IMG/VR virus record: IMGVR_UViG_3300042731_005198
Span: 1-35,530 of that record
From: a virus
Length of the DNA stretch: 35,530 nucleotides
Strand: one strand, 5' to 3'
The notes under the pieces are model-generated. The model did not search any database. It saw nothing but the letters and a program-made list of their open reading frames with translations, and was not told where the DNA came from. Position numbers and translations under genes: made by a program. The first letter of the stretch is position 1. The number at the start of each line of letters is the position of its first letter. Of the stretch, positions 6,291 through 35,530 are shown one piece after another.

Positions 6291-6599
6291 ATGTTAAAAC
6301 GGACGGAAAATAGAATAAAAGAATTAATAGATGAAAAGACAGAGAAATTAGAGAAGATAGATGAGCAATTAAAAGATCTATTAATAAATAACAGTTATAG
6401 TGTAGAGGATATAAAAGATCTAATTTCTTTTATTAAAGAACACTCAATACCACATGTAAGATTAAAGGTAGATAATATAGAATTAGAAATAGTAGGAGAA
6501 CCTCCCATGCGAAATGATATGGAAGGTGAAGAAAGATCAAGAAACCCATTTGGCCTAACAGACGATCAAATAAGAACCGCGGCAGGAAGGGATTGGTAA
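6291..6599 (+). CDS. small coiled-coil protein after terL
   Basis: This is a 102-residue product with a highly charged coiled coil at about residues 1-50 (ENRIKELIDEKTEKLEKIDE). A strand-rich middle (HVRLKVDNIELEIVGEPP) follows, and the tail is polar (GLTDDQIRTAAGRDW). The ATG is one base after the terL stop, and GAGG lies inside the end of terL. Codons in the first half are very AT-rich. Function is unknown; small proteins here can be packaging accessories or head-tail parts. The long repeat-rich gap starts right after its stop. Confidence 0.75.
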   Translation: MLKRTENRIKELIDEKTEKLEKIDEQLKDLLINNSYSVEDIKDLISFIKEHSIPHVRLKVDNIELEIVGEPPMRNDMEGEERSRNPFGLTDDQIRTAAGRDW

Positions 6600-7118: not shown

Positions 7119-7250
7119 CATATAAGTTAATGTAGGGAAAAGTAAGATAAGATTAATGTAAGGACATATAAATTAATGTAGGGATAGGTAGGATAAGATT
7201 AATGTAAGGACATATAAGTTAATGTAGGGATAGGTAGGATATATGAATAC
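7119..7250. repeat. 46-bp tandem repeat, nearly three copies
   Basis: Units start with CATATAA at 7119, 7165 and 7211, with an exact 46-base period. Inside each unit, TTAATGTAGGGA and, in the complete units, ATTAATGTAAGGA occur, so the unit itself looks like a diverged half-repeat. The third unit breaks down near 7245. It lies 110-240 bases upstream of the portal ATG. Confidence 0.75.
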
Positions 7251-7363: not shown

Positions 7364-9157
7364 ATGCTCTATAACTTGTGGTGGAAGGCAGAAAAATCCG
7401 AAGTGCACACAGCAATATGGAATATCTGTCAAACGCTTAAAGACCAGCAACATGATCGCATAAAGGAAGACATCATACACTTAAAACAGTATGGCAACAT
7501 AGATATATCGTCTGTGTTATCAGGTAGTATATTAGAAGCTAAAACGGTAAATAAAGAAGCACGAGCCAAGCGCAATATTATCTTTTCCGCTATTGATACT
7601 CTGACCTCCAAGATCGCCCAGAAAAAGCCTAGACCGTTCTTTAAGCCATATTCCAACGATTTTGAAGTGTCTAACAATTGCGAAGTGCTTACCGATTATG
7701 TCACAGGATTGTTTCAGAGTCTTGGTATCTATAAGCAGACTCGAGAAATTTTTAGAAACAGTGGTTGGAAAGGAGAAGCACATTTAAAAATATGGGTCGA
7801 AAACGACGAGATTAAGACGGAATCAGTGTTTCCTTTAGAGGTGTGGGTTGACGCATTTGAAGCAATGACAGGAAACCCTAGGTCCATGTATCAGGTAAAA
7901 ACGGTGCCCAAAGAAGTATTGATGGCACGATTTAAGAATAAGAAAGGCGAAATAGAGACTTCTGCCTGTAACATTAATAACTTTTGGATAGAGTCTCACG
8001 CCGAGTTTATTGATGTTGTAGAGGCTTGGCACCTACGTTCTGGACCAGACGCAAAAGATGGCCGACATGTAATCGCTGTAAGTGATGGTTCTTTAATAGA
8101 CGAACCGTGGGAATATGATTTCTTTCCGTTTGTTACTTGGAGGTGGAAACAGCGTGGCCTCGGTTGGTACGGCATGGGAATAGCCGAGCAGTTAGACGGC
8201 ATACAGACCGATATTAACTTAATGATGCTTTCTATTCAGCGCAACCTACATCTTAACTCTCAACCATATTGGTGGATTCCTACTAATGCCGAGATACCGG
8301 TTGGAGCAATCAATAATGAATTTGGTAGAATTATACGGTCTCGACAACCACCTAAACTTTTCACTTTTCAACAAATGCCGTCTGATTTTTATCAATGGTT
8401 GGCTTTACGCAAACAAGAAGCTTTCGAGGAAATTGGGCTTAGTGAATTATCTGTTGCTGCTAAAAAACCAGCGGGTCTAGAGTCTGGCGTTTCCTTACGT
8501 GAATACGCCGATATTGAAACCGAGCGATTCAAAGAAGTAGGTTTGGATTGGCAAGACTTCCACGTAGAAATTGGCAGACGGCTAGTTATTTTATCGAAGG
8601 AGATAGCCAGCAATTATGATTTCGTAATGCCGTCTGTGAAGCGTGATATTTTCTCGAAGATCATTTGGGAAGAGGTAGATTTGAGTAGCGATAAGTATCA
8701 AATGGTAGCTTATCCTACTTCTTCTTTGCCTAGCCGGCCAGAAGGACAATTAGCGTTTATTGAACAAATGCTAAAGATGCAACTTATCAAAGACCCTGAG
8801 ATAGCTAGAGACTTATTAGATTGGCCAGACTTGAACAAATATAATGACATGCATTCTGGCTTGAATGACGCTGTAAAGCAAATAGTGGACCGTATAGCCA
8901 AGACAGGCGAATACGAGCCACCGGATCCTTTGTTTCCAGCGGATCATTGTTTGTCTTATGCTCTTATGGTTTATGGCCGTATGAATGTAGAGAAATACCC
9001 AGAATTAAATAAACAGTCAATCCGTGAATGGATTAACGATTGTCAAGAAATGATAAGAGAAGCCCAAGAAGCCCAAGAAGCGCAAGCAGTGCAAGAAGCC
9101 CAAGAAGCGCAAGCGCCTGAGGCTTTGAATACACCAGGGCAACAAATGCCACAATAA
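7364..9157 (+). CDS. portal protein
   Basis: This 597-residue protein forms the dodecameric portal through which DNA is packaged and ejected. Portal-type features are the early helix ARAKRNIIFSAIDTLTSKIA, then KKPRPFFKPY (about 67-83), a Trp-rich middle (FPFVTWRWKQRGLGWYGMG) and a long helical C-terminal half. It is followed by scaffold and capsid genes in the standard head-gene order. GGAG precedes the ATG. The C-terminus is a low-complexity QEAQEAQ stretch (about 565-585) encoded by repeated CAAGAAGC units at 9063-9115, possibly a slippage-prone tail. Confidence 0.85.
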   Translation: MLYNLWWKAEKSEVHTAIWNICQTLKDQQHDRIKEDIIHLKQYGNIDISSVLSGSILEAKTVNKEARAKRNIIFSAIDTLTSKIAQKKPRPFFKPYSNDFEVSNNCEVLTDYVTGLFQSLGIYKQTREIFRNSGWKGEAHLKIWVENDEIKTESVFPLEVWVDAFEAMTGNPRSMYQVKTVPKEVLMARFKNKKGEIETSACNINNFWIESHAEFIDVVEAWHLRSGPDAKDGRHVIAVSDGSLIDEPWEYDFFPFVTWRWKQRGLGWYGMGIAEQLDGIQTDINLMMLSIQRNLHLNSQPYWWIPTNAEIPVGAINNEFGRIIRSRQPPKLFTFQQMPSDFYQWLALRKQEAFEEIGLSELSVAAKKPAGLESGVSLREYADIETERFKEVGLDWQDFHVEIGRRLVILSKEIASNYDFVMPSVKRDIFSKIIWEEVDLSSDKYQMVAYPTSSLPSRPEGQLAFIEQMLKMQLIKDPEIARDLLDWPDLNKYNDMHSGLNDAVKQIVDRIAKTGEYEPPDPLFPADHCLSYALMVYGRMNVEKYPELNKQSIREWINDCQEMIREAQEAQEAQAVQEAQEAQAPEALNTPGQQMPQ

Positions 9158-24919: not shown

Positions 24920-25465
24920 TTAAGGTAGATATTCTTGTTCTGAAAACGAGTGCTCGATTACCTCAACTCTGTTGTTCTTATGATATATGCCAGTAAGCCA
25001 AGACACTCGATGCTTCTTACTAATAGGATAGCGGTATGAGCAACACATACGGGCTATTATTATATCAGGAGTAGAAATAAAGTCTTGGTAGGCTTGTCCA
25101 CATGTCAATAGTTCAAGCCTACCTATAGCTGACCGCGCACCAGTTACTCTATCAACAGTCTCGTGTGTTATGTATGTTGGTAACGATTGGAATGCTCTAA
25201 TATGGGCATTTGTGCGTGTGTCAGCACAAGCAAGGAAAGTATCCTTGGTTTGCCCGTAAACATGGCTGGCGTGTCGTGTAGAAGCGCACGATACGATTGT
25301 TAGGATGGCCAACAGAATAGTGACAATGACACTTGTTGCCTTGGTCTCTGGCCTGCGCTTGTGTGATTTAATCCAGCCTTTCTCCTGGGCCTTACGCACC
25401 CAAGCTTCCCCGAATTGCTCCCTCAAGTTATCAATCTCACTCTGCGTCGGTTTCCGTTTTGACAC
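24920..25465 (-). CDS. membrane-anchored hypothetical protein with Cys-rich outer domain
   Basis: This is a 181-residue protein. The N-terminal ~40 residues are charged and cytoplasmic-looking (SEIDNLREQFGEAWVRKAQE). A hydrophobic helix (44-60, TSVIVTILLAILTIVSC) ends at Cys60, which resembles a lipobox but lies far from the N-terminus. The remaining ~120 residues contain more Cys and would be periplasmic. It is the distal gene of the integrase operon and overlaps the end of the integrase gene by 29 bases. Lysogenic conversion, superinfection exclusion or a spanin-like role are possible; none is proven. Composition is GC-richer than the virion genes. Confidence 0.6.
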   Translation of the reverse strand: MSKRKPTQSEIDNLREQFGEAWVRKAQEKGWIKSHKRRPETKATSVIVTILLAILTIVSCASTRHASHVYGQTKDTFLACADTRTNAHIRAFQSLPTYITHETVDRVTGARSAIGRLELLTCGQAYQDFISTPDIIIARMCCSYRYPISKKHRVSWLTGIYHKNNRVEVIEHSFSEQEYLP

Positions 25466-26411
25466 CGTCGTTTCCTTTCATTGTCCCGTAGGGGACGTTC
25501 AGTTGTAAAACACCACGCTGTTGTGTGGCTTCATCCCTGCGATCGTAGCGGGCGGTAATCTGAACATTGCTGTGCCCAACTTGACGGGCAATCGTGCTCA
25601 GGTCGACACCAGCGTCGAGCAACTCCGAGATAAACGACCTACGTAGGTCATGGGGTGAGAATGGCTTAATACCCGCTTTCTTGTGTCTCAGACGCACTAT
25701 ATCGTAGACAGTCTGGGCATTGATCGCTCTGCCAACTACAACAAATCCAGACTTGCGAACCCGGTTGAAAAGGTAGCCTGGCTTGACGCCACGGTTCACT
25801 AGCCATTCGACCACGGCGTTTACGGTTCCAGGTGGCAAGAACACGGTCCGCTCTTTGTTGCCCTTGCCGATGACCTTGCAGCGCCCCTCGGCTATATTGA
25901 CATTCTCGACCTGTAACTCGGCAACTTCGGCTCGTCGTAGGCCTGCACCGTAGAGCATGGCCAGGATAGCAATGTCGCGATTACCAAGGGCCCTATTGCT
26001 GTCCTTGGCGCAGGTCTCAAACAATGTGGCAATCTCGTCTACCTTTACCACCCTACCCTTTGGTTGGCGTTTTCCACGAATCGGTGACACGTCAATGGTT
26101 CTTGCCATAGCCTCATGGGTCAATAGCCCCAAGCGCCAGGCTGTCTTTAGCACGCCACGCACAGCGGTAAGGTAGCGGTTTGCTGTAGCGGGTGCGTACC
26201 GTCTGACCAAGTGTGCCCGTAGAGCCGCAAGGTGCGGTGCTTTTAGTTCGTGCCAGGCCAACTCATCGGCTAGTACTTGGTCGTCGCTAAGAACCGAAGC
26301 CACGGATTCAAGAGCTGACCGCATAGTGCGGGCCGAGCCAGCATTGAAAGCACTGAGGTAAGTGTTAATTGGGTTGTCTTCGTATCGGTGGGTTTTGATG
26401 AAGATAGGCAT
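25437..26411 (-). CDS. int: tyrosine recombinase / integrase
   Basis: This 324-residue enzyme performs site-specific recombination between phage and host attachment sites. An N-terminal SAM-like core-binding domain (~10-105) is followed by the catalytic domain. The full active-site set is visible: R159 (GAGLRR), K183 (IGKGNKER), H254 and R257 (SPHDLRRSF), H280 (QVGHSN) and the nucleophile Y289 (ARYDRR). It is XerD-like in length and motif style. The start at 26411 (MPIFIKTHR) lies 1 base after the stop of the upstream TPR gene. An extension further upstream would overlap that gene and lacks support. GC content is clearly higher than in the virion region. Confidence 0.92.
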   Translation of the reverse strand: MPIFIKTHRYEDNPINTYLSAFNAGSARTMRSALESVASVLSDDQVLADELAWHELKAPHLAALRAHLVRRYAPATANRYLTAVRGVLKTAWRLGLLTHEAMARTIDVSPIRGKRQPKGRVVKVDEIATLFETCAKDSNRALGNRDIAILAMLYGAGLRRAEVAELQVENVNIAEGRCKVIGKGNKERTVFLPPGTVNAVVEWLVNRGVKPGYLFNRVRKSGFVVVGRAINAQTVYDIVRLRHKKAGIKPFSPHDLRRSFISELLDAGVDLSTIARQVGHSNVQITARYDRRDEATQQRGVLQLNVPYGTMKGNDGVKTETDAE

Positions 26412-26412
26412 G

Positions 26413-27111
26413 TTAGTCTTCGATAAACCTCGGCAGGGTCGCCCCAAGCTTGGTGAATGCTAGGTTGTAAGTAGCCGAGCAAGAACTAGACACCCTACAT
26501 TCTGCCGCACTTGGAATGAGTTGCCCGTTTCCGACTGGCCAATATTCGTAGGAGCACATAGCCTCAAGCGTCACCTCATAGCCGTCCGAGTCGATGTAGG
26601 TGCACGTTTCGATACTATCGGCCACGCAAGCGTCCGGGTATTCGTCCAACGTTGTCATCCAACAGTGACCGTCGGTCATAGCCGCTTCGATATACGCGCT
26701 AAACAAGCCCTCTGGAGAATGGATGTAGAGGTCGATGCCACGCAACCCAAAGGGGTTATAGGCTTGCTTGCTGATACCAACCCGATAACGGCCATTGACC
26801 ATTTCCAGGCCAGTACAATCGATGTCTCCACAAGCGACTGTGGCCATAGAGATGGCAACCAAGATAACAAAAGAAGTAATCAGTTTGAAGACTGCGCTAG
26901 CCTTGGCGAATATCCCTTTGCGCTCGTATTCCTCGGCGACCTTGCGGTACTCGTGCTTGGCCATGTTGGGACGTCCCATCTTGCGTAGTAGATCTGCCCT
27001 ACGCAAACGAAGTGTCGGGCTGTCTGGCTTATTGGCTATGGCTTGCTCGTAGACTTGGAGCGCTTCGTTGAGGTTTCCTCCGTTGATTAGTTTTGCCGCT
27101 TTGTTAATCAT
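26413..27111 (-). CDS. TPR domain fused to a membrane-anchored extracytoplasmic domain
   Basis: This is a 232-residue protein. Residues 1-76 form a TPR pair (AAKLINGGNLNEALQVYEQA, then HEYRKVAEEYERKGIFAKAS) very like the N-terminal TPR modules of Myxococcota proteins. A transmembrane helix (78-94) follows, ending in a TVAC lipobox-like site. The C-terminal ~138 residues are rich in Cys and acidic residues, including one DGY triplet, and would face the periplasm. The arrangement (cytoplasmic TPR, helix, outer domain) is unusual for a phage protein. AAGGAGAT precedes the ATG. It is the first gene of the integrase operon. Function unknown; a host-derived sensor or immunity protein is plausible. 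Confidence 0.65.
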   Translation of the reverse strand: MINKAAKLINGGNLNEALQVYEQAIANKPDSPTLRLRRADLLRKMGRPNMAKHEYRKVAEEYERKGIFAKASAVFKLITSFVILVAISMATVACGDIDCTGLEMVNGRYRVGISKQAYNPFGLRGIDLYIHSPEGLFSAYIEAAMTDGHCWMTTLDEYPDACVADSIETCTYIDSDGYEVTLEAMCSYEYWPVGNGQLIPSAAECRVSSSCSATYNLAFTKLGATLPRFIED

Positions 27112-27348
27112 AGGTATCTCCTTAGTTGTTGTGTAGATGTGTGACGATTGCTACGCCTTGAAAAGTGTGATTTTTACAGCGTATGTATATCGAAAACGAA
27201 GACCGCCTCGCGAGCCCCCGCCTGGTTTCCTTTGCTGTCAGCGTGCTTATCATCTCCCCTACTCCAAGTCTACCATAGCCATCCTGTTTTTTCATCCGGG
27301 CTTTGGACCGGCAACGGCACAGTTACTAGGGCCACAAGGGCCCCGGTT

Positions 27349-27624
27349 TCACTTCTCCTTTCTGGCCTCGCAGGTCACCGCGAAAGTCTTATCGTCGAGC
27401 TTGCGAACGCGCAGGAGAGTACCATCCTTGCGGTCCTTGTTGGCGTCTTTTGCCCAGTTGCGTAGGCGGGAAACGAATGAAGAATCGCAACCCTCGTATG
27501 GGATGCCGTCCCCTTCTTTGAGAGCGTCCCACCTTTGCTGTAGCGGATTCGCCTTTTTGGTTGCCCCCTTGGTGGCAAAGTTCATTGCTTTTACCTTCAT
27601 CGTTTTTCCTGCTTTACCTGTCAT
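27349..27624 (-). CDS. small basic hypothetical protein, 91 aa
   Basis: This Lys-rich protein has a possible N-terminal DNA-contacting tail (AGKTMKVKAMNFATKGATKK). A helical middle (LQQRWDALKEGDGIPY, then SSFVSRLRNWAKDANK) precedes a strand pair (GTLLRVRKLDDKTFAVTCEA). AAAGGA lies just before the ATG; an internal ATG (MKVKAM) could also be used. It stands upstream of the integrase operon and downstream of the large inverted repeat at 27689-27750. A regulator or an integrase accessory (excisionase-like) protein is a reasonable guess from size, charge and position. Confidence 0.6.
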   Translation of the reverse strand: MTGKAGKTMKVKAMNFATKGATKKANPLQQRWDALKEGDGIPYEGCDSSFVSRLRNWAKDANKDRKDGTLLRVRKLDDKTFAVTCEARKEK

Positions 27625-27779: not shown

Positions 27780-28499
27780 TTAGTCTATCCGCTCCCCATA
27801 CATGTATGCTTGTTCCGTCTCAAGTTGTCCGTTTGGATACCAGTATTTCACAATCCCGTGTTGTTGCCCTTGGTGGTAAGGGATTTCCCTTTCAAGTTTT
27901 CCATTCTCATGCCAATATCTTACAATCCCGTGTTTTTGTCCTTTGTGGTATGGGGCTTTAAACTCAAGTTTTCCATTCTCATCCCAACATTTCACAACCC
28001 CGTGTTCTTGTCCTTTGTGCCATGGGATTTCCCACCAAAGTTGTCCATTTGGATACCAGTATTTCACAACCCCGTGTTTTTGTCCTTGTCGGTATGGAAT
28101 TTCACTTTCAAGTTTTCCGTTCTCATCCCAACGTTTCTCAACGCCGTGTTGTTGCCCTTTGTGGTAAGGGATTTCCTTTTGAAGTTGGCCATTCTCGTGC
28201 CACCATTTCACAACCCCGTGTAGTTGTCCTTGTTGGTATGGAATTTCCCACCAAGGTTGTCCATCATCATACCACCATTTCTCAACGCCGTGTGGTTGCC
28301 CTTTGTGGTAAGGGATTTCCTTTTGAAGTTTTCCATTCTCATGCCAGGATCTTACAACCCCGTATCCTTGCTCTTGGTTGTATGTGACCACCTGTTTAAG
28401 TTTTCCGTTAGGCCACTTTTCAACCGCACCATATATGATACCTTCGACGCAATTACAAATCGCAAACAACATAGCAAACACAACTAATACCCTTTTCAT
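27780..28499 (-). CDS. secreted MORN_2/YwqK-type repeat protein
   Basis: This is a 239-residue protein. Unlike the other copies it begins with a signal peptide (MKRVLVVFAMLFAICNCVEG, positive end then hydrophobic core), so it is probably exported. It lacks the shared HDAYTAW segment. About nine 24-residue repeats follow, of the type HGVVKWWHENGQLQKEIPYH, and the protein ends YMYGERID instead of WEHG. AAAGGAAAAG precedes the ATG. It is the last MORN gene of the array, next to the inverted repeat at 27689-27750. Chromosomal YwqK-like proteins are often secreted lipoproteins, so this copy may be closest to the ancestral form; that is inference. Confidence 0.85.
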   Translation of the reverse strand: MKRVLVVFAMLFAICNCVEGIIYGAVEKWPNGKLKQVVTYNQEQGYGVVRSWHENGKLQKEIPYHKGQPHGVEKWWYDDGQPWWEIPYQQGQLHGVVKWWHENGQLQKEIPYHKGQQHGVEKRWDENGKLESEIPYRQGQKHGVVKYWYPNGQLWWEIPWHKGQEHGVVKCWDENGKLEFKAPYHKGQKHGIVRYWHENGKLEREIPYHQGQQHGIVKYWYPNGQLETEQAYMYGERID

Positions 28500-28522
28500 T
28501 CTACTTTTCCTTTCTCTGTCAA

Positions 28523-28822
28523 TTACAGCTTTAGAAGCTTTTCAATTATACTAGGGTCAGTTATTTTACCTCCCCAATGTTCTTCATAGACACCACCCAT
28601 TACGTCATGCATTGTATCATTGTGTAAATTAGGACAGGCTTCCTTTAGCTCCTGTGGTGTTAATGTCATTTGTCCATAACTGTTTGTTTCTATAGTTACA
28701 TGACCAAATGCAACTGCATGGCAAAGCCAATCTAAATAGGTATGAGTTGGGCCAGGATACGGTGGTCTACTACAACTAATGATCGTTTTCATTATTTCGT
28801 CTTTTAATGTTTGGTCTAACAT
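28523..28822 (-). CDS. hypothetical protein, 99 aa, in the MORN array
   Basis: I do not recognise this protein. It begins MLDQTLKDEIMKTIISCSRP and has an aromatic segment (YPGPTHTYLDWLCHAVAFGH) and a polar C-terminal helix (DPSIIEKLLKL). AAAGGAAAG precedes the ATG. It is flanked on both sides by MORN genes in the same direction (24 bases to the next ATG), so it is a cargo gene of the array. Confidence 0.65.
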   Translation of the reverse strand: MLDQTLKDEIMKTIISCSRPPYPGPTHTYLDWLCHAVAFGHVTIETNSYGQMTLTPQELKEACPNLHNDTMHDVMGGVYEEHWGGKITDPSIIEKLLKL

Positions 28823-28862
28823 TCTATTCTACTTTCCTTTCTATGTTAGAACCCTGATCTAT

Positions 28863-29861
28863 TCAGAGTGCTATTCCGTGTTCCCAATACGTTTCACTTT
28901 CAAGTTGTCCATTTAAATACCACCGTTTCTCTACCCCGTGTTTTTGTCCTTGGTGGAACGGGACTTCATACTTAAGTTTTCCGTCTTCATACCAACGTTT
29001 CACAACCCCGTGTTGTTGCCCTTGGTGAAATGGTATTTCAACTTCAAGGTGTCCATTCTCGCGCCACCGTTTCTCAACCCCGTGTTCTTGCCCTTGGTGA
29101 AATGGTATTTCCTTTTGAAGTTGTCCATTTTCGTGCCACCGTTTCATAACGCCGTGTTCTTGCCCTTGGTGAAACGGGACTTCATACTTAAGTTTTCCGT
29201 CTTCATACCACTGTTTATCAATCCCGTGTATTTGTCCTTGTTGGTATGGGGCTTCAATTTGAAGTTGTCCATTCTTGTGCCACTGTTTTACAATGCCGTG
29301 TCTTTGCCCTTGGTGAAACGGGACTTCAAACATAAGTTTTCCATTCTCATCCCAACGTTTCTCAATGCCGTGTGGTTGCCCTTGGTGATATGGGGTTTCC
29401 TCTTGAAGTTGGCCATTCTCGTGCCAACGTTTCTCAACCCCGTGTTTTTGCCCTTGTTGGTAAGGGATTTCTGATTGAAGTTGTCCGTCTTCATACCAGT
29501 ATTTTATAACCCCGTGTTCTTGCCCTTTGTGCCATGGGATTTCCTCACAAAGTTGTCCATTCTGATACCACCGTTTCTCAATGCCGTGTGGTTGCCCTTG
29601 GTGGAATGGAGCTTCACTTTGAAGTTGGCCATTCTCGTGCCAACGTTTCTCAACGCCGTGTTTTTGCCCTTGGTGGAACGGGACTTCACTTTCAAGTTGT
29701 CCATTTGGATACCAATATCTTACAACATAGCTTTTCGTTTCCGCATTGATATCACTTATAGTAATAGGATCGTTTTCTTCATCCTGCCAATGAATTCCTT
29801 TTTCATCTTTATGTGTCAATCCTGATATCCAGGCTGTGTAAGCGTCGTGTAGTAAGTTCAT
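28863..29861 (-). CDS. MORN_2/YwqK-type repeat protein (12 repeats, longest copy)
   Basis: This is a 332-residue protein starting at the ATG at 29861 (MNLLHDAYTAWISG). A longer frame exists but would overlap the previous gene, and the MNLL start is shared with other copies. After the ~45-residue N-terminal segment come twelve 24-residue repeats, the most in the window. The repeat with GKLKYEVPFHQGQ occurs twice at separate places, a sign of internal duplication. The C-terminus is YWEHGIAL. The start overlaps the stop of the upstream MORN gene (ATGA). The long array of near-identical 72-bp DNA units makes this a likely site of unequal recombination or of assembly error. Confidence 0.9.
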   Translation of the reverse strand: MNLLHDAYTAWISGLTHKDEKGIHWQDEENDPITISDINAETKSYVVRYWYPNGQLESEVPFHQGQKHGVEKRWHENGQLQSEAPFHQGQPHGIEKRWYQNGQLCEEIPWHKGQEHGVIKYWYEDGQLQSEIPYQQGQKHGVEKRWHENGQLQEETPYHQGQPHGIEKRWDENGKLMFEVPFHQGQRHGIVKQWHKNGQLQIEAPYQQGQIHGIDKQWYEDGKLKYEVPFHQGQEHGVMKRWHENGQLQKEIPFHQGQEHGVEKRWRENGHLEVEIPFHQGQQHGVVKRWYEDGKLKYEVPFHQGQKHGVEKRWYLNGQLESETYWEHGIAL

Positions 29862-30352
29862 TGTTTTATTCCGTGTTCCCAATAGGTTTCCAACCAAAGC
29901 TTTCCATTGTCATGCCACACTTTCACAACCCCGTGTTTTTGTCCTTGATAAAATGGTATTTCCGCCCTAAGTTTTCCATTCTCATACCACCGTTTCATAA
30001 CGCCGTGTATTTGTCCTTGTTGGTATGGTATTTCAACTTCAAGTTGTCCGTTATCGTGCCACCATTTCACAACCCCGTGTTTTTGTCCTTTGTGCCATGG
30101 TATTTCCTCATAAAGTTGTCCATTCTCATCCCAACGTTTCATAACGCCGTGTCTTTGCCCCTGATAAAATGATAGTTCACTTTCAAGTTGTCCATTTGGA
30201 TACCAATATCTTACAATATAACTTTCCGTTGCCACATTCACATTGCTTATGGTAATAGGATCGTCATATTTATCCTGCCAATGAATTCCTTTTTCGTCTT
30301 TGTGTGTAAATCCTGATGTCCATGCTGTGTAAGCGTCGTGTAGTAATGTCAT
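29858..30352 (-). CDS. MORN_2/YwqK-type repeat protein (5 repeats)
   Basis: This is a 164-residue protein starting MTLLHDAYTAWTSG at 30352, where AAAGGA lies about 9 bases upstream. The longer in-frame version lacks support. It has the N-terminal segment, five repeats and the ending YWEHGIKQ. Its stop overlaps the next MORN ATG (ATGA). It is the first gene after the 307-bp gap at 30353-30659, so transcription of this sub-cluster may start there. MTLL versus MNLL starts correlate with position: in the complete genes MTLL copies follow non-MORN genes or gaps, and MNLL copies directly follow another MORN gene, except for 34334-34972. Confidence 0.85.
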   Translation of the reverse strand: MTLLHDAYTAWTSGFTHKDEKGIHWQDKYDDPITISNVNVATESYIVRYWYPNGQLESELSFYQGQRHGVMKRWDENGQLYEEIPWHKGQKHGVVKWWHDNGQLEVEIPYQQGQIHGVMKRWYENGKLRAEIPFYQGQKHGVVKVWHDNGKLWLETYWEHGIKQ

Positions 30353-30376
30353 TCTGTTTTTCCTTTCTCTATTGGT

Positions 30377-30431
30377 GGAACGGGTGAGTCGGGGAGGATT
30401 GATAAAAAGGAGGACCCTACCCACCCGTTCC
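30377..30431. repeat. 10-bp inverted repeat in MORN leader
   Basis: GGAACGGGTG (30377-30386) pairs perfectly with CACCCGTTCC (30422-30431). It lies 25-80 bases upstream of the MORN ATG at 30352 and could fold in the leader mRNA or bind a regulator. No T run follows the stem directly on the - strand. Confidence 0.5.
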
Positions 30432-30472
30432 TAGTTGTTTGTTGCTAGTTCTTGATTGGTTAGAGCGTGATG

Positions 30473-30488
30473 GTATCGGAACCGATAC
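30473..30488. promoter_or_regulatory. operator-like palindrome GTATCGGAACCGATAC
   Basis: Seven-base arms (GTATCGG / CCGATAC) flank AA. Perfect short palindromes of this type are common repressor sites. It lies about 120 bases upstream of the MORN start at 30352 and 170 bases downstream of the RHH gene stop; no second copy was noticed in the window. Confidence 0.45.
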
Positions 30489-30659
30489 GCTGAACTGGCT
30501 GGTCAGAGAGTGTGCAACTTTTATGCCAACGACGAAAACCCCAACGAAATCAAGCAACACACATTGTGGTAAGATGTGTGACACTATGACATGCAGGTCT
30601 GTGTGGGAATGTAGTCCTCAACAAAATCAGGTAGTTGTAGCTTGAAAAAAAGTCAGAGC

Positions 30660-30806
30660 TTATTCCTTCATATTCTTTTTATACTCTCTAATTATTCTCG
30701 CTAATAATTCAGACTTTGATATGTCCAGTTGTTTTGCTTGGGTATCAAACCAATTGAATAACTCTTTGTCTTTCTGCTTAATGTAAAACATTTTTCTTTG
30801 TTCCAT
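30660..30806 (-). CDS. small ribbon-helix-helix protein, 48 aa
   Basis: This short gene was found by reading the - strand. AAGGAG lies before the ATG at 30806 and the frame ends with TAA at 30662-30660. The product has a strand (RKMFYIKQKDKEL), a helix (FNWFDTQAKQLD), the turn-and-helix start ISKSELLARIIREY, and a basic end (KKNMKE). This is an RHH pattern like the protein at 1295-1459: both show an aliphatic strand followed by S/T-x-S-x-L-x-R-x-I. It is the third gene of a set with the methyltransferase and a 46-residue protein, and is likely a DNA-binding regulator of that set. Confidence 0.7.
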   Translation of the reverse strand: MEQRKMFYIKQKDKELFNWFDTQAKQLDISKSELLARIIREYKKNMKE

Positions 30807-30810
30807 AATA

Positions 30811-30951
30811 TTACTCCTTACTTTTTTTGTTTTTCCAATATTCTATTTGTCTTAATCTCCGCTCAACCTGTTTCTCTGTTTTATAAGGCCCAGCGATCTT
30901 CTTACCCTTATGGTCTACTATAATATAGCCTTTATTCGTTTTCTTTATCAT
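30811..30951 (-). CDS. small basic hypothetical protein, 46 aa
   Basis: The ATG at 30951 is preceded by GGAGGTG, a near-perfect ribosome site that lies in the last codons of the methyltransferase gene. The frame ends with TAA at 30813-30811, inside the ribosome site of the RHH gene. The product is a basic strand-turn-helix (GYIIVDHKGKKIAGPYKTEK, then QVERRLRQIEYW). It resembles small single-domain phage proteins in which a beta-hairpin is followed by one helix. Function unknown. Confidence 0.7.
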   Translation of the reverse strand: MIKKTNKGYIIVDHKGKKIAGPYKTEKQVERRLRQIEYWKNKKSKE

Positions 30952-30953
30952 AT

Positions 30954-31499
30954 TTACACCTCCAAGCCCCACGCGTCCCAACCTTGTGCCCTTTGCCTTG
31001 CGAATAACTCAATGCGTGGTATATTGCCATATAGTTCTACGATTCGATCCCGTGCTTCATCTGGCTTCCTACTGTGTTCCCTGCGCTTGGATATTATAAC
31101 TGAACTGACTTTATTACTTACTGGCTTAAGCCTTCCTTTAATGCCAAGCAAACAGACTTCAGCGTTCGATTTAGTGTAGTAGCCAACACCAAAACAGGGC
31201 CTACCATTTCTTTTGTTGGTTTTAATCCAAGTGAAAGCGACCGTTTTATAATCAAAGCCCCAGTGCTTAAATAATTTAATTTGCTCGTCTAAATAAGGAA
31301 ACGTGCACCACAGAAATAGAGCACAGTTTGGTTCAGCTATATTTGGAACCGGTAACGCTTTAATCTCCGCCATAGACATTAAATCATAGTGGCCACAAGC
31401 TCCACCACGAAATCGTGTTTTATGATTTGCTTTGCTATTGTATTTCCAAGGCGGATCGGCGTAGATTATGGAATATTGTTTATTTGTTGTTAGATTCAT
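30954..31499 (-). CDS. MT-A70 family DNA N6-adenine methyltransferase
   Basis: This is a 181-residue enzyme that would methylate adenine N6 using S-adenosylmethionine. The catalytic DPPW motif is at 15-18 (YADPPWKY). It is followed by MSMAEIKALPV, ALFLWCTFPYLDEQIKLF and WGFDYKTVAFTWIKTNK, all typical of the MT-A70 family, and by a C-terminal block with KPDEARDRIVELYG and RIELFARQ. AGGA precedes the ATG. Such phage enzymes usually protect DNA from host restriction or mark it for other purposes; no restriction partner is seen. It heads a three-gene operon placed between MORN genes. Confidence 0.93.
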   Translation of the reverse strand: MNLTTNKQYSIIYADPPWKYNSKANHKTRFRGGACGHYDLMSMAEIKALPVPNIAEPNCALFLWCTFPYLDEQIKLFKHWGFDYKTVAFTWIKTNKRNGRPCFGVGYYTKSNAEVCLLGIKGRLKPVSNKVSSVIISKRREHSRKPDEARDRIVELYGNIPRIELFARQRAQGWDAWGLEV

Positions 31500-31548
31500 A
31501 TCGACTAATCCTATTTGCTTTATTATGGGTTATATATACTACTATTTA

Positions 31549-32262
31549 TTAGCTCTGTCTATATCCGTGTTCCCAATACGTTTCACTTTCAAGTTGTCCG
31601 TTCTCGTTCCACACTTTCACAACCCCGTGTTTTTGTCCTTGATAAAATGGTATTTCCGCCCAAAGTTTTCCATTCTCGCGCCACTGTTTCACAACCCCGT
31701 GTTGTTGTCCTTGGTGAAATGGTATTTCCTCTTCAAGTTGTCCGTTATCGTACCACCGTTTCACAACCCCGTGTTGTTGTCCTTGGTGAGCTGGGATTTC
31801 CGCCTTAAGTTTTCCACTCTCATACCACTGTTTCACGATTCCGTGTTCTTGTCCTTTGTACCATGGGACTCTAAACTCAAGTTTCCCATTCTCATACCAC
31901 CATTTCTCAACCCCGTGTTGTTGTCCTTTGTGCCATGGGGTTTCAACTTCAAATTGTCCGTTTTCATTCCACCGTTTCTTAATGCCGTGTATTTGTCCTT
32001 GTCGGCACGGTATTTCCAACCAAAGTTGCCCATTCTTGTGCCACTGTTTTACAATGCCGTGTCTTTGCCCTTGGTGAAACGGGACTTCATTTTCAAGTTG
32101 TCCGTTATCATACCAGTGTCTTACAACATAGCTTTCTGTTTCCGCATTTACATTGCTTATGGTAATAGGATTGTCATATTTATCCTGCCAATGAATTCCT
32201 TTTTCATCTTTATGTGTCAATCCTGATAACCATGCTGTGTAGGCGTCGTGTAGTAAGTTCAT
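31549..32262 (-). CDS. MORN_2/YwqK-type repeat protein (8 repeats)
   Basis: This is a 237-residue protein starting at MNLLHDAYTAWLSG (32262), with the ATG overlapping the stop of the upstream copy (ATGA at 32262-32259). It has the N-terminal segment and eight 24-residue repeats, some deviating (FRVPWYKGQ, EIPCRQGQ). The end, YWEHGYRQS, differs slightly from the family ending. The repeat block FYQGQKHGVVKVW is shared with the copy at 29858-30352, indicating exchange of repeats between copies. Confidence 0.88.
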   Translation of the reverse strand: MNLLHDAYTAWLSGLTHKDEKGIHWQDKYDNPITISNVNAETESYVVRHWYDNGQLENEVPFHQGQRHGIVKQWHKNGQLWLEIPCRQGQIHGIKKRWNENGQFEVETPWHKGQQHGVEKWWYENGKLEFRVPWYKGQEHGIVKQWYESGKLKAEIPAHQGQQHGVVKRWYDNGQLEEEIPFHQGQQHGVVKQWRENGKLWAEIPFYQGQKHGVVKVWNENGQLESETYWEHGYRQS

Positions 32263-32753
32263 TGTTTTATTCCGTGTTCCCAATGGGTTTCTAACTCAAG
32301 CTGTCCATTCTCATGCCACAGTTTCACAACCCCGTGTTGTTGCCATTGGTGAAATGGGATTTCTGCTTCAAGCTGTCCGTTCTCATGCCACCGTTTCATA
32401 ACGCCGTGTAGTTGTCCTTGATAAAATGGTATTTCCAACCAAGGTTGTCCGTTTTCATACCACTGTTTCACAACCCCGTGTTTTTGTCCTTGGTGAAATG
32501 GGGCTTCAATTTGAAGTTGTCCGTTCTCGTACCACCGTTTCTCAACGCCGTGTTGTTGCCCTTGGTGAAATGGTACTTCCTTCAAAAGTTGTCCGTTTTG
32601 ATACCAATATCTTACAACATAGCTTTTTGTTTCCGCATCAATATCACTTATGGTAATAGGATCGCCATTCTCATCCTGCCAATGAATTCCTTTTTCATCT
32701 TTATGTGTCAATCCTGATAACCAGGCTGTGTAAGCGTCGTGTAGTAATGTCAT
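32259..32753 (-). CDS. MORN_2/YwqK-type repeat protein (5 repeats)
   Basis: This is a 164-residue protein beginning MTLLHDAYTAWLSG, with the shared N-terminal segment, five repeats (one with QWQ in place of QGQ) and the ending HWEHGIKQ. Its ATG overlaps the stop of the zinc-ribbon gene (ATGA at 32753-32750), and its own stop overlaps the next MORN ATG. It is therefore the middle of a three-gene chain joined by four-base overlaps, which suggests fixed ratios of the products. Confidence 0.88.
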   Translation of the reverse strand: MTLLHDAYTAWLSGLTHKDEKGIHWQDENGDPITISDIDAETKSYVVRYWYQNGQLLKEVPFHQGQQHGVEKRWYENGQLQIEAPFHQGQKHGVVKQWYENGQPWLEIPFYQGQLHGVMKRWHENGQLEAEIPFHQWQQHGVVKLWHENGQLELETHWEHGIKQ

Positions 32754-33199
32754 TTTTTCACCCCTGCTAATCGTTCAATCAATTGCTCTGAACGCAATTC
32801 GTCTCTGGTATCCTGGAGCATCTTAATGCGCTCATCCAACTCGAGAATCTTTTTATCTAGAGGTACGTCCCAAGAAATAGTATAATTGGCACCCGGATAA
32901 GAACTATTATTGACAACACCAAACCCTAATGCCATTAATCTATCAATAAATAATTGGTTGACGTCGCCTAACGAGCAATTGACCAAGCCACTTCTTGCAG
33001 AATCATAAATATGAGACATTATTTCTTCAAATGCTTTATCGCTATTTGCCAGTGTTCTGACTTTCTTGGCGTCTTTTAATTTATAACATTCATAATAGCA
33101 CATACGATGATAATATTTTATTAATAGTGTATTAGATTCAGTGTAGATTTTGCGTTGCCATGGACGAATAGGCTTATTACATATTGGACATAGTTTCAT
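32750..33199 (-). CDS. zinc-ribbon hypothetical protein coupled to MORN gene
   Basis: This is a 149-residue protein. The N-terminus has a probable zinc site: Cys4 and Cys7 (LCPICNKPI), then His31 with Cys34 and Cys38 (YYHRMCYYECYKL). The middle (~50-110) is a mixed helix-strand region ending YTISWDVP. The last ~35 residues are a charged helix (LDERIKMLQDTRDELRSEQL). The stop overlaps the MORN start by four bases. DNA, RNA or protein binding are all possible for a single ribbon with a coiled-coil tail. It has the same style of W-containing end as the protein at 984-1298. Confidence 0.7.
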   Translation of the reverse strand: MKLCPICNKPIRPWQRKIYTESNTLLIKYYHRMCYYECYKLKDAKKVRTLANSDKAFEEIMSHIYDSARSGLVNCSLGDVNQLFIDRLMALGFGVVNNSSYPGANYTISWDVPLDKKILELDERIKMLQDTRDELRSEQLIERLAGVKK

Positions 33200-33227
33200 T
33201 ATTTTTTATCCTTATTATCTCTGCTTC

Positions 33228-33758
33228 CTATGTAATATTTGATTTTAGAAATAAACCAACTGGCATTCTATTTTTATAGTTATAATTATTATTATTGTGT
33301 CGTATAATATTTGGTTTTAATTTATCACTAATAATATCACATGTTGTAGCAAGACATTCTTTTGGCGTGATACAATTACAGGTAGTTGCTTTTGGTATAA
33401 TTTTTATGTTATGAAAATTATTACTTTGTTTTAAACCGTATGCAGTTGATCTAACGCAGGCACAAGCGTTGATTCCACATATTCTTAAATTATTTGACTG
33501 TAAGAATGTAGTATTTTTCATCGTTGATATTATTTCAGTTGTTCCGCAGTCTTTGTTCTTTTTAACAATTTTATATTTATTATATTCTTTAAGCACGCGG
33601 TATATTTTTTTATGTGATGTAGAGCCATTAAACTCTACAATCATTATGCCAGCTTCATCTTTCATAGCCAATTTTCTTTGTTTTATCACTTGGCGTAGGA
33701 TTTTTTTATGTGCTGGAAATCTTTTTTGCACATCAATAACACATAGTGTATATCTCAT
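33228..33758 (-). CDS. isochorismatase-like cysteine hydrolase
   Basis: This is a 176-residue protein. The N-terminal strand and catalytic Asp are clear (TLCVIDVQKRF, D9), as is the nucleophile block (LRICGINACACVRSTAYGL, C101). The family uses an Asp-Lys-Cys triad; the Lys is probably one of those at 64-69 (KIVKKNK). Relatives hydrolyse nicotinamide, isochorismate or carbamoyl-type amides. The C-terminal ~30 residues are unusual and Asn-rich (IIRHNNNNYNYKNRM). Start and upstream stop overlap (ATGA). A phage copy could act on NAD-derived or signalling metabolites, for example against NAD-depleting defence; that is inference. Confidence 0.75.
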   Translation of the reverse strand: MRYTLCVIDVQKRFPAHKKILRQVIKQRKLAMKDEAGIMIVEFNGSTSHKKIYRVLKEYNKYKIVKKNKDCGTTEIISTMKNTTFLQSNNLRICGINACACVRSTAYGLKQSNNFHNIKIIPKATTCNCITPKECLATTCDIISDKLKPNIIRHNNNNYNYKNRMPVGLFLKSNIT

Positions 33759-34084
33759 TCCTCTTCATATTCTCCGGTATATACATCAACGTATCCTTCA
33801 TCTTTGGGATACTTTTCATCTATTACACTATTGCAGAAATCTATTTTTTTTCTTATGTCGATTGAACCATATCGCCAGTCCTCGCCATTCCAGTTTTCAG
33901 AATAAATTACGTCAGTTGTTTTTTTACACATCTCAAAGTATTCATCAACGTAACCTTTCCAATCGTAGTTGGGAAACACGATTGCCATTTTTTTCGCTAA
34001 TTCATTAGCACATGTATCACACCCACCATCAGCAGTGCCTAAAATATAGCCTATTAGTTGTGCTTCTTTTTTAGTCATTTTCAT
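33755..34084 (-). CDS. hypothetical protein, 109 aa
   Basis: This is an acidic C-terminal, Cys-containing small protein (GTADGGCDTCANELAKKMAI at ~16-35, then a Trp-rich DWKGYVDEYFEMC and ENWNGEDWRYG). A CxxC pair is present but no other metal-site residues are obvious. A second ATG two codons in (34078) is better spaced from GGGAG and may be the real start. It overlaps the genes on both sides, by 14 and 4 bases, so it is part of a tightly coupled operon. Function unknown. Confidence 0.65.
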   Translation of the reverse strand: MKMTKKEAQLIGYILGTADGGCDTCANELAKKMAIVFPNYDWKGYVDEYFEMCKKTTDVIYSENWNGEDWRYGSIDIRKKIDFCNSVIDEKYPKDEGYVDVYTGEYEEE

Positions 34085-34319
34085 TCTCCCAATTATTCAT
34101 TTCTTTATGCAGATCTAATGTTTCTTGCGTAAGCATAAGATCTGCGTCTTTTTCTGCTAATGCTCTGTAATATTCCAAGAACTGCTGTTCTGTAATCTCG
34201 TCGGCGCCTGTAGTGTGATATACCGTGCTTGCAATTTTTTTTACAAACGACAATGATTTATTAGAATAAAAGAAGTGCTTGTTTTCGCCTATTGTAGTAA
34301 TGCAGTAATATTTTTTCAT
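34071..34319 (-). CDS. hypothetical protein, 82 aa
   Basis: This is a small protein with an N-terminal strand pair (MKKYYCITTIGENKHFFYSN), a basic helix (LSFVKKIASTVYH) and a C-terminal acidic helix (QFLEYYRALAEKDADLML). AGGAG lies about 7 bases before the ATG. It follows a MORN gene after a 14-base gap and overlaps the next gene. No family is recognised; the strand-helix layout resembles many phage accessory proteins. Confidence 0.65.
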   Translation of the reverse strand: MKKYYCITTIGENKHFFYSNKSLSFVKKIASTVYHTTGADEITEQQFLEYYRALAEKDADLMLTQETLDLHKEMNNWENEND

Positions 34320-34333
34320 CCTATACTCCTATC

Positions 34334-34972
34334 TCATTGTTTTATTCCGTGTTCCCAATGGGTTTCACATTCAAGCTTTCCATTCTTGTACCACTGTTTA
34401 GCAACACCGTGTATTTGCCCTTGGTGATATGTGGTTTCCATCCAAAGCTGTCCGTTTTCATACCACTGTCTCACAACACCGTGCTGTTGCCCTTGTTGGT
34501 ATGGGACTTCAAACATAAGTTGTACGTTGCCATACCACCGTTTCACAACGCCGTGCTGTTGTCCTTGTTGGTATGGGACCTCAAACATAAGTTGTCCGTC
34601 GGCATACCACTGTTTCACAACCCCATGTCTTTGCCCTTGGTGAAATTGGATTTCCGCTTCAAGTTGTCCATCGGCATCCCAATCCTTTTCAGTTCCGTAT
34701 TTTTGTCCTTGTTGGTATGGGACCTCAAGTTTAAGTTGTCCATTTTCGTGCCACTGTTTCACGATTCCGTGTTTTTGTCCTTGGCGATATGGTTCTTCAC
34801 TTTCAAGTTGTCCATTTGGATACCAATATTTTACAATATAGCTTTTTGTTTCCATATTGATATTGCTTATGGTAATAGGATCGTTTTCTTCATCCTGCCA
34901 ATGAATGCCTTTTTCATCTTTGTGTGTCAATCCTGATGTCCATGCTGTGTAAGCGTCGTGTAGTAGGTTCAT
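34334..34972 (-). CDS. MORN_2/YwqK-type repeat protein (7 repeats)
   Basis: This is a 212-residue protein beginning MNLLHDAYTAWTSG, with seven repeats. One repeat departs strongly (KYGTEKDWDADGQLEAEIQF) and two adjacent ones are near-identical (QLMFEVPYQQGQQHGVV twice), which points to a recent duplication. It ends HWEHGIKQ. The start shares one base with the stop of the upstream MORN gene (TAATG). It is followed by non-MORN cargo genes. Confidence 0.88.
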   Translation of the reverse strand: MNLLHDAYTAWTSGLTHKDEKGIHWQDEENDPITISNINMETKSYIVKYWYPNGQLESEEPYRQGQKHGIVKQWHENGQLKLEVPYQQGQKYGTEKDWDADGQLEAEIQFHQGQRHGVVKQWYADGQLMFEVPYQQGQQHGVVKRWYGNVQLMFEVPYQQGQQHGVVRQWYENGQLWMETTYHQGQIHGVAKQWYKNGKLECETHWEHGIKQ

Positions 34973-35530
34973 TATTTTATTCCGTGTTTCCTTATCATTT
35001 TTTCTATGTATTCTTGTCCTATTACGTGTTTCCTTATTATTTTTTCTATGTATTCTTGTCCTTGGTCATAGGGGATTTCCCGCCAAAGTTGTTCATTGCC
35101 ACACCACTCTTTCACAACCCCGTGTCTTTGCCCTTGATAATATGGTATTTCTTCTTCAAGCTTTCCGTTCTCGTGCCACCATTTCGCGATTCCGTGTTTT
35201 TGTCCTTGGTGAAACGGGATTTTCCACCAAAGTTTTCCGTTTTCGTACCACCGTTTCTCTACCCCGTGTTTTTGTCCTTGATGGTAAGGGATTTCCCACC
35301 AAAGTTTTCCATTTTCGTGCCACTCTTTCGCAACCCCATGTTGTTGCCCTTGGTGAAATGGTACTTCCTTCAAAAGTTGTCCATTTTGATACCAATATCT
35401 TACAACATAGCTTTTTGTTTCTATGTCAATATCACTTATAGTAATAGGATCGTTTTCTTCATCCTGCCAATGAATTCCTTTTTCATCTTTATAAGTTAGC
35501 CCTGATAGCCAGGCTGTGTAAGCGTCGTGT
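34972..35530 (-). CDS. MORN_2/YwqK-type repeat protein with atypical C-terminus, 5' end cut
   Basis: The frame runs off the right edge in codons for HDAYTAWLSG; only about four residues and the ATG are missing. It has the N-terminal segment and five repeats. Then, instead of the usual WEHG ending, it has a tail containing two copies of GQEYIEKxIRKH. The tail is encoded by a 42-base tandem duplication (starts at 34983 and 35025). Its TAA shares one base with the next ATG. If the genome is circular, the gene at the left edge (1-410) lies just before or beside this one. Confidence 0.85.
   Translation of the reverse strand, partial: HDAYTAWLSGLTYKDEKGIHWQDEENDPITISDIDIETKSYVVRYWYQNGQLLKEVPFHQGQQHGVAKEWHENGKLWWEIPYHQGQKHGVEKRWYENGKLWWKIPFHQGQKHGIAKWWHENGKLEEEIPYYQGQRHGVVKEWCGNEQLWREIPYDQGQEYIEKIIRKHVIGQEYIEKMIRKHGIK
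34983..35066. repeat. 42-bp tandem duplication in MORN gene 3' end
   Basis: Two units starting CGTGTTTCCTTAT begin at 34983 and 35025, differing at very few bases. The period is 14 codons, so the reading frame is kept. It forms the atypical C-terminus of the MORN protein at the right edge. Confidence 0.75.

Follow-up and report, generated by a model that had tools for sequence, protein, structure and literature searches.

A recombining array of MORN_2 repeat genes in the genome of a predicted temperate tailed phage

Nine genes built from one 24-residue repeat lie at the two ends of IMGVR_UViG_3300042731_005198, a 35,530-bp viral record analysed here in full (the window), and raise the question of how such an array varies and what its products do for a phage. 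A second IMG/VR contig, G001 (IMGVR_UViG_3300037297_000099, 36,171 bp), exhibits no difference from the window over everything compared, one segment excepted. G001 bridges the window ends, between which there is a gap of 20 bp, and an exact 112-bp overlap joins its own ends to give a circle of 35,550 bp. Because the genome closes as a circle, the two arms of the array form one region that runs from position 27780 round to 973. An initial annotation had described the array as extending across both edges of the window; both arms do hold array genes, but the edges are a single junction at which 20 bp are absent. The region spans ~8.7 kb, and the nine repeat genes together comprise ~5.6 kb, or ~16% of the genome, rising to about a quarter when the interspersed ORFs are included.

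The window encodes a terminase, a portal-like protein, an SU10-type major capsid protein and adaptor, tail fibre genes, an S74 chaperone domain and a tyrosine integrase, a gene set that by its content marks the genome as that of a tailed, temperate phage. The array lies on the minus strand and the structural genes on the plus strand. When the terminase and portal are used to search for related phages, G001 is recovered along with just one distant fragment and some remote terminases, and the window terminase has no match in the 31 genomes that carry similar MORN_2 genes. Scans of the phage for tRNAs and Rfam elements identify none, and scans for promoters and terminators are at chance level. 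The segment at 25350–27600, within which the integrase lies, has a G+C content of ~54% compared to 40% elsewhere and is possibly host-derived DNA near the attachment site; the first 78 residues of an ORF in this segment resemble a TPR protein and are followed by lipoprotein-like sequence. A non-coding 46-bp tandem repeat (2.7 copies, 93% matches) is present at 7119–7241, between position 6599 and the portal gene at 7364.

The nine repeat genes, g1 to g9, are all on the minus strand and surround the junction of the window's ends, with g1–g6 complete within 27780–34972 and g7–g9 straddling the ends. The 239-residue product of g1 (27780–28499) has a signal peptide followed by nine MORN_2 units (PF07661, E=6e-50) and lacks the N-terminal head common to the other genes. 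A non-repeat ORF of 99 residues with no family match (28523–28822) separates it from g2 (28863–29861; 332 residues), which contains the head, 12 MORN_2 units and a C-terminal cap, and g2 is adjoined by g3 (29858–30352; 164 residues, head and five units). A ~270-bp stretch without a clear gene (30370–30640) lies upstream of g3, and is possibly the leader of the gene pair that starts with g3. Between g3 and g4 is an interspersed non-repeat gene for an MT-A70 DNA methylase (30954–31499), followed by g4 (31549–32262; 237 residues, head and eight units), g5 (32259–32753; 164 residues, head and five units) and a 149-residue ORF (32750–33199) whose stop codon overlaps the g5 start at an ATGA. The g6 gene (34334–34972; 212 residues) has the head and seven units. 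The g7 gene (34972–35530) is cut by the window end and g8 (1–410) by the window start; their full lengths, 189 residues with head and five units at L010:10285–10854 and 140 residues with head and four units at L010:9866–10288, respectively, come from outside the window record. The last gene, g9 (407–973), codes for 188 residues with head and six units. ATGA overlaps join g9 to g8, g5 to g4 and g3 to g2, as well as g8 to g7 in the second contig, and the g7–g6 junction is TAATG. The array is interrupted by the 99-residue ORF, by the MT-A70 methylase with small ORFs, and by four small ORFs.

The methylase (E=2e-31) is classified by PADLOC as a type II methyltransferase and no restriction enzyme is seen beside it in the array region; it is the only PADLOC match, with no meaningful match to PADLOC defence families for the repeat proteins. 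A 176-residue ORF at 33228–33758 has an isochorismatase-like start (CVIDVQ), and the isochorismatase family has a weak Pfam match (E=0.0011) to one ORF of the scanned set.

The array contains 61 units of 24 residues (72 nt), with 9, 12, 5, 8, 5, 7, 5, 4 and 6 units from g1 to g9, in line with the initial count of about sixty repeats in nine genes at 4–12 per gene. The proposed assignment to the MORN_2 family is borne out by the repeat length, by the hairpin fold in predicted models and by scores far above the PF07661 cut-off of 29.6 bits (for example, 217.9 bits and E=3e-68 for g2; 117.8 bits and E=1e-35 for g9). Tandem Repeats Finder identifies a 72-nt period in all nine genes, outscored in most of them by a period of 144 or 216 nt, which indicates duplication of two- and three-unit blocks. 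The units of these genes have a mean identity of 73%. A 45-residue head, HDAYTAW...GIHWQD, with 26 invariant residues is common to g2–g9, so that the N-terminal segment attributed earlier to eight genes is indeed found in eight, and none of these N-termini resembles a signal peptide; g1 is the exception on both counts. A conserved tail, E(T/A)(H/Y)WEHG(I/M)KQ, closes most genes, although in g7 this C-cap is absent and a 42-bp tandem duplication stands in its place. Each head-bearing gene thus codes for a conserved N-terminal cap and 4–12 hairpin modules, and most add a conserved tail at the C-terminus. In searches of 2.9 million viral contigs and 84,980 genomes the head is found nowhere except G001.

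AlphaFold models of g9 (pLDDT 91.1) and g2 (pLDDT 87.8) are confident and consist of one helix at residues 3–13 followed by an unbroken series of beta-hairpins, one every 24 residues, a rhythm that holds through all 12 units of g2. In these models the head looks like an N-terminal helix cap. The best matches among solved folds are OspA variants and eukaryotic MORN1 proteins, and the best in a viral library are giant-virus MORN proteins, two of which are named antitoxins. WD40 proteins, which appeared as PDB sequence matches, were dropped as candidates given the open runs of beta-hairpins and the OspA and MORN1 fold matches. Acidic DNA mimicry was rejected on the predicted pI values of the window genes, 5.8–8.2.

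Comparisons among the copies provide evidence of recombination. A PHI-type test written for this analysis gives p=0.0005 for the heads and tails of seven genes, and again p=0.0005 for the heads and first unit of eight genes. The g8 gene is a mosaic, with a head 93% like that of g7 and a final 83 nt identical to g9, and exact blocks of 60 and 53 nt are shared by g2 with g4 and by g3 with g4; the initial description of blocks common to non-adjacent copies is confirmed. Judged from these sequences, the copies have traded both modules and larger parts of genes.

The one segment in which the two contigs differ offers a further view of the locus. At the left end of G001, a different gene (geneX) precedes the 82-residue ORF that follows g6 in the window (34319). 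This mosaic gene has stretches in common with g5 (116 nt), g2 (96 nt) and g3 (38 nt), and includes units absent from all other copies. In this allele (L009) it is followed by a g6 remnant truncated after its first 47 nt, of which 46 match g6, and then by a downstream flank identical to the window for at least 1,300 bp; at the right end of G001, by contrast, g6 is present in the window's version. The simplest reading is that one slot may have two structural forms, whether both occur in a single population or one belongs to a sister strain; misassembly at the left end of G001 could also give this arrangement. Together, the PHI-type test, the mosaic blocks and a second allele on an otherwise identical genome support the recombining multigene array originally proposed. 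The further proposal that the array generates variants is upheld in part: two forms occur at one slot, but none of the nine genes differs in repeat number between the window and the only other assembly, and this equality speaks against fast change.

Patterns of substitution differ between the head and the repeat units. Purifying selection, by this measure, acts on the heads, for which pN is 0.09 and pS 0.32 (pN/pS ~0.28; all such estimates here are uncorrected for saturation and codon bias). Within 51 units of the window genes, the structural positions W5, G9, Q21, H23 and G24 are nearly invariant. In the same uncorrected estimates, position 4 (pN 0.58) and position 13 (pN 0.71) exceed the overall pS of 0.48, the bootstrap intervals for the pN–pS difference lie above zero, and at positions 12 and 22 pN roughly equals pS. 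Because the model strands span unit positions 1–5 and 11–18, positions 4 and 13 would fall on different strands of the same hairpin. In a control set of Helicobacter chromosomal arrays, positions 4, 12 and 13 likewise exceed pS; the pattern of variability is therefore general to MORN_2 arrays. Selection that favours variety could account for the excess at positions 4 and 13; so could weak constraint at exposed sites.

Relatives recovered by unit-level searches are chiefly from Helicobacter and Bacteroidetes, several of them in tandem with one head per array. These chromosomal arrays (L031, L033, L048, L057, L079) resemble the phage locus in having 4–7 neighbouring genes, a single conserved head for each array, repeat numbers of 3–14 and the same hypervariable positions. 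They differ in that the head is a signal peptide with a short stretch of conserved residues (e.g. ECK..ADKISGC), and no phage genes are seen alongside. In a single Helicobacter rappini genome, MORN_2 genes are spread over at least seven contigs (L031, L033, L038, L042, L045, L060, L081); the genes in the arrays read there bear signal peptides as well as a conserved ECK..DKISGC segment. By a simple hydropathy rule applied to a biased sample, 110 of 118 MORN_2 genes outside the window encode a hydrophobic N-terminus; the remaining eight comprise three genes of a Helicobacter equorum prophage, three on one viral contig, one at a Helicobacter rappini contig end and one with a doubtful start. The count suggests that bacterial arrays are exported and phage arrays cytoplasmic, a contrast absent from the literature found.

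Among 50,697 annotated phage records, only three contain a detectable MORN_2 protein, and an array is present only in the Helicobacter equorum prophage (BK070118; L011, L025); more distant phage MORN proteins also exist, as seen in the fold search of the viral library. Like the window, this prophage has tandem overlapping genes without signal peptides at the integrase end and the same variable unit positions, with three genes of 10–17 MORN_2 units each. Unlike the window array, it has no head in common with g2–g9 and its repeats are ~43–51% identical, and a search without a positive control finds no match to the window terminase in the genome that bears it. The initial statement that no phage system of this form had been described therefore calls for a qualification: BK070118 offers a three-gene precedent, and giant viruses and bacterial chromosomes also contain large MORN families. 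Elsewhere, a 598-residue viral protein (L019:7164–8960) has MORN_2-like repeats followed by a C-terminal segment that, by eye, resembles an ASCH-type domain.

Several known systems share parts of this design. Lamprey variable lymphocyte receptors combine fixed caps, a variable number of modules, variety at exposed positions and assembly by gene conversion; the likeness is one of design only, as fold and organism are unrelated and the phage array shows no programmed assembly. Giant viruses, including Orpheovirus, Hyperionvirus and marseilleviruses, also have many paralogous MORN proteins per viral genome, but they have protist hosts, much larger genomes and no known head in common with the window. 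Fusobacterium carries expanded families of 24-residue repeats annotated as MORN2/YwqK, with 1–27 repeats, which unlike the window array are chromosomal and mostly exported, and are linked to invasion (PMC12940168; PMC5551000). MORN_2 antitoxins take the YwqK name from the YwqJ–YwqK pair of Bacillus subtilis, in which YwqK is the partner of the LXG toxin YwqJ (PMC6562991, PMC8321402); there, a single gene adjoins the toxin gene, unlike the array. In Campylobacter jejuni, a MORN_2 gene adjoins a homologue of the T4 Imm protein and is part of the host operon that a T4-like phage induces most strongly (PMC6024767). MORN repeats are 37-fold more frequent in long-read viral data than in short-read assemblies (PMC9238414), so phage MORN arrays are probably under-reported.

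What the products do is a matter of weighing alternatives. Binding decoys, immunity proteins and host-surface modifiers were the roles initially suggested; for the eight products that lack a signal peptide, this lack speaks against the last. No toxin, target or partner family is identified among the window ORFs with Pfam, NCBIfam, PHROGs and PADLOC, a set in which small uncharacterised ORFs remain. A YwqK-type antitoxin locus would pair a MORN_2 protein with an adjoining cognate toxin gene; the former is present and the latter is not detected in these scans, and YwqK is only one annotated member of a family whose bacterial members found here mostly look secreted. A polymorphic-toxin poly-immunity locus would be a series of diverse or paralogous immunity genes with cytoplasmic products; the array genes are paralogous, recombining and mostly without signal peptides, and their products might or might not confer immunity. 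Two further candidates were set aside: a diversity-generating retroelement, as Pfam and PHROGs scans contain no reverse transcriptase family, and a module partner, as the ORFs preceding g9 and g5 are not convincingly related (E=0.023, single comparison).

The reading tentatively preferred, though held at somewhat less than even confidence, is that the array encodes diversified intracellular binders with a role in immunity or counter-defence; it is favoured because the products are mostly cytoplasmic, the caps are fixed and variation falls at exposed positions. Unequal crossing-over, slippage and gene conversion among the 72-nt units would keep yielding proteins of different length, and a few exposed residues, positions 4 and 13 above all and then 12, 22, 2 and 15, would change from module to module without alteration of the caps. 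In the least certain part of this reading, the products of g2–g9 would act in the host cytoplasm, in lysogeny or early infection, where they may bind and neutralise a range of protein antagonists, much as counter-defence inhibitors do or orphan immunity proteins, of which YwqK is the named example, and the exported g1 product would meet its partner outside the cytoplasm. The main rival to intracellular binders is neutral repeat turnover, in which units expand, contract and exchange unaided, the proteins fold and their variety is of no use. The higher-order periods of 144 and 216 nt, the fresh duplication in g7, the loss of its C-cap, the loss of g6 from the second allele and the fact that the variable positions are those variable in every MORN_2 array examined all accord with neutrality. 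It is nevertheless unlikely: nine open frames persist in a 35.5-kb genome where decay would not preserve them, and selection on the heads, near-invariant structural positions and the excess over pS at positions 4 and 13 sit poorly with it.

Lysogenic conversion of the cell surface by adhesin-like or surface MORN_2 proteins, as has been suggested in Fusobacterium and Leptospira, draws on the g1 signal peptide, on the exported, invasion-linked Fusobacterium families and on the sole NCBIfam match, the Leptospira LIC20035 adhesin family (NF033566). That family assignment is rejected at 65.4, 36.8 and 22.6 bits, far below the curated cut-off of 250, and surface conversion is improbable given that eight of nine genes lack a signal peptide, that the head is predicted to form a short helix cap and that bacterial arrays of like design do carry signal peptides. 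Equally hard to credit is a structural scaffold that, on the model of eukaryotic MORN proteins, polymerises or attaches to membranes or to the site of phage replication, with the copies serving dosage. Although the closest solved folds include MORN1 of Toxoplasma, Trypanosoma and Plasmodium as well as junctophilin, TM-scores to the MORN1 structures are modest (0.36–0.58), and dosage leaves both the spread of 4–12 units and the amino-acid changes concentrated at two positions unexplained. The array might finally owe its copies or its second allele to short-read chimeras, as its longest exact blocks (83 nt in the window, 116 nt in the mosaic gene) are near assembler word length and both contigs terminate within the array. 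Such an artefact is very improbable, for the nine genes occur without one difference in two contigs, the circle closes through an exact overlap and the mosaic gene holds units present in no other copy.

Neither the MORN_2 domain nor its tandem arrays nor the conserved-head design is new; the novelty lies in the phage setting at this scale, the cytoplasmic head and the mosaic second allele. Intracellular binders may even constitute a self-diversifying phage repertoire, renewed during phage growth and blocking changing proteins of hosts or competitors, an extension that is itself rather doubtful but that, if true, would represent a phage parallel, at the level of design, to receptor repertoires built from repeats. 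Arrays of MORN_2 genes are widespread but unexplained, and a small phage with two forms of one slot offers a compact system in which to study their turnover and function.
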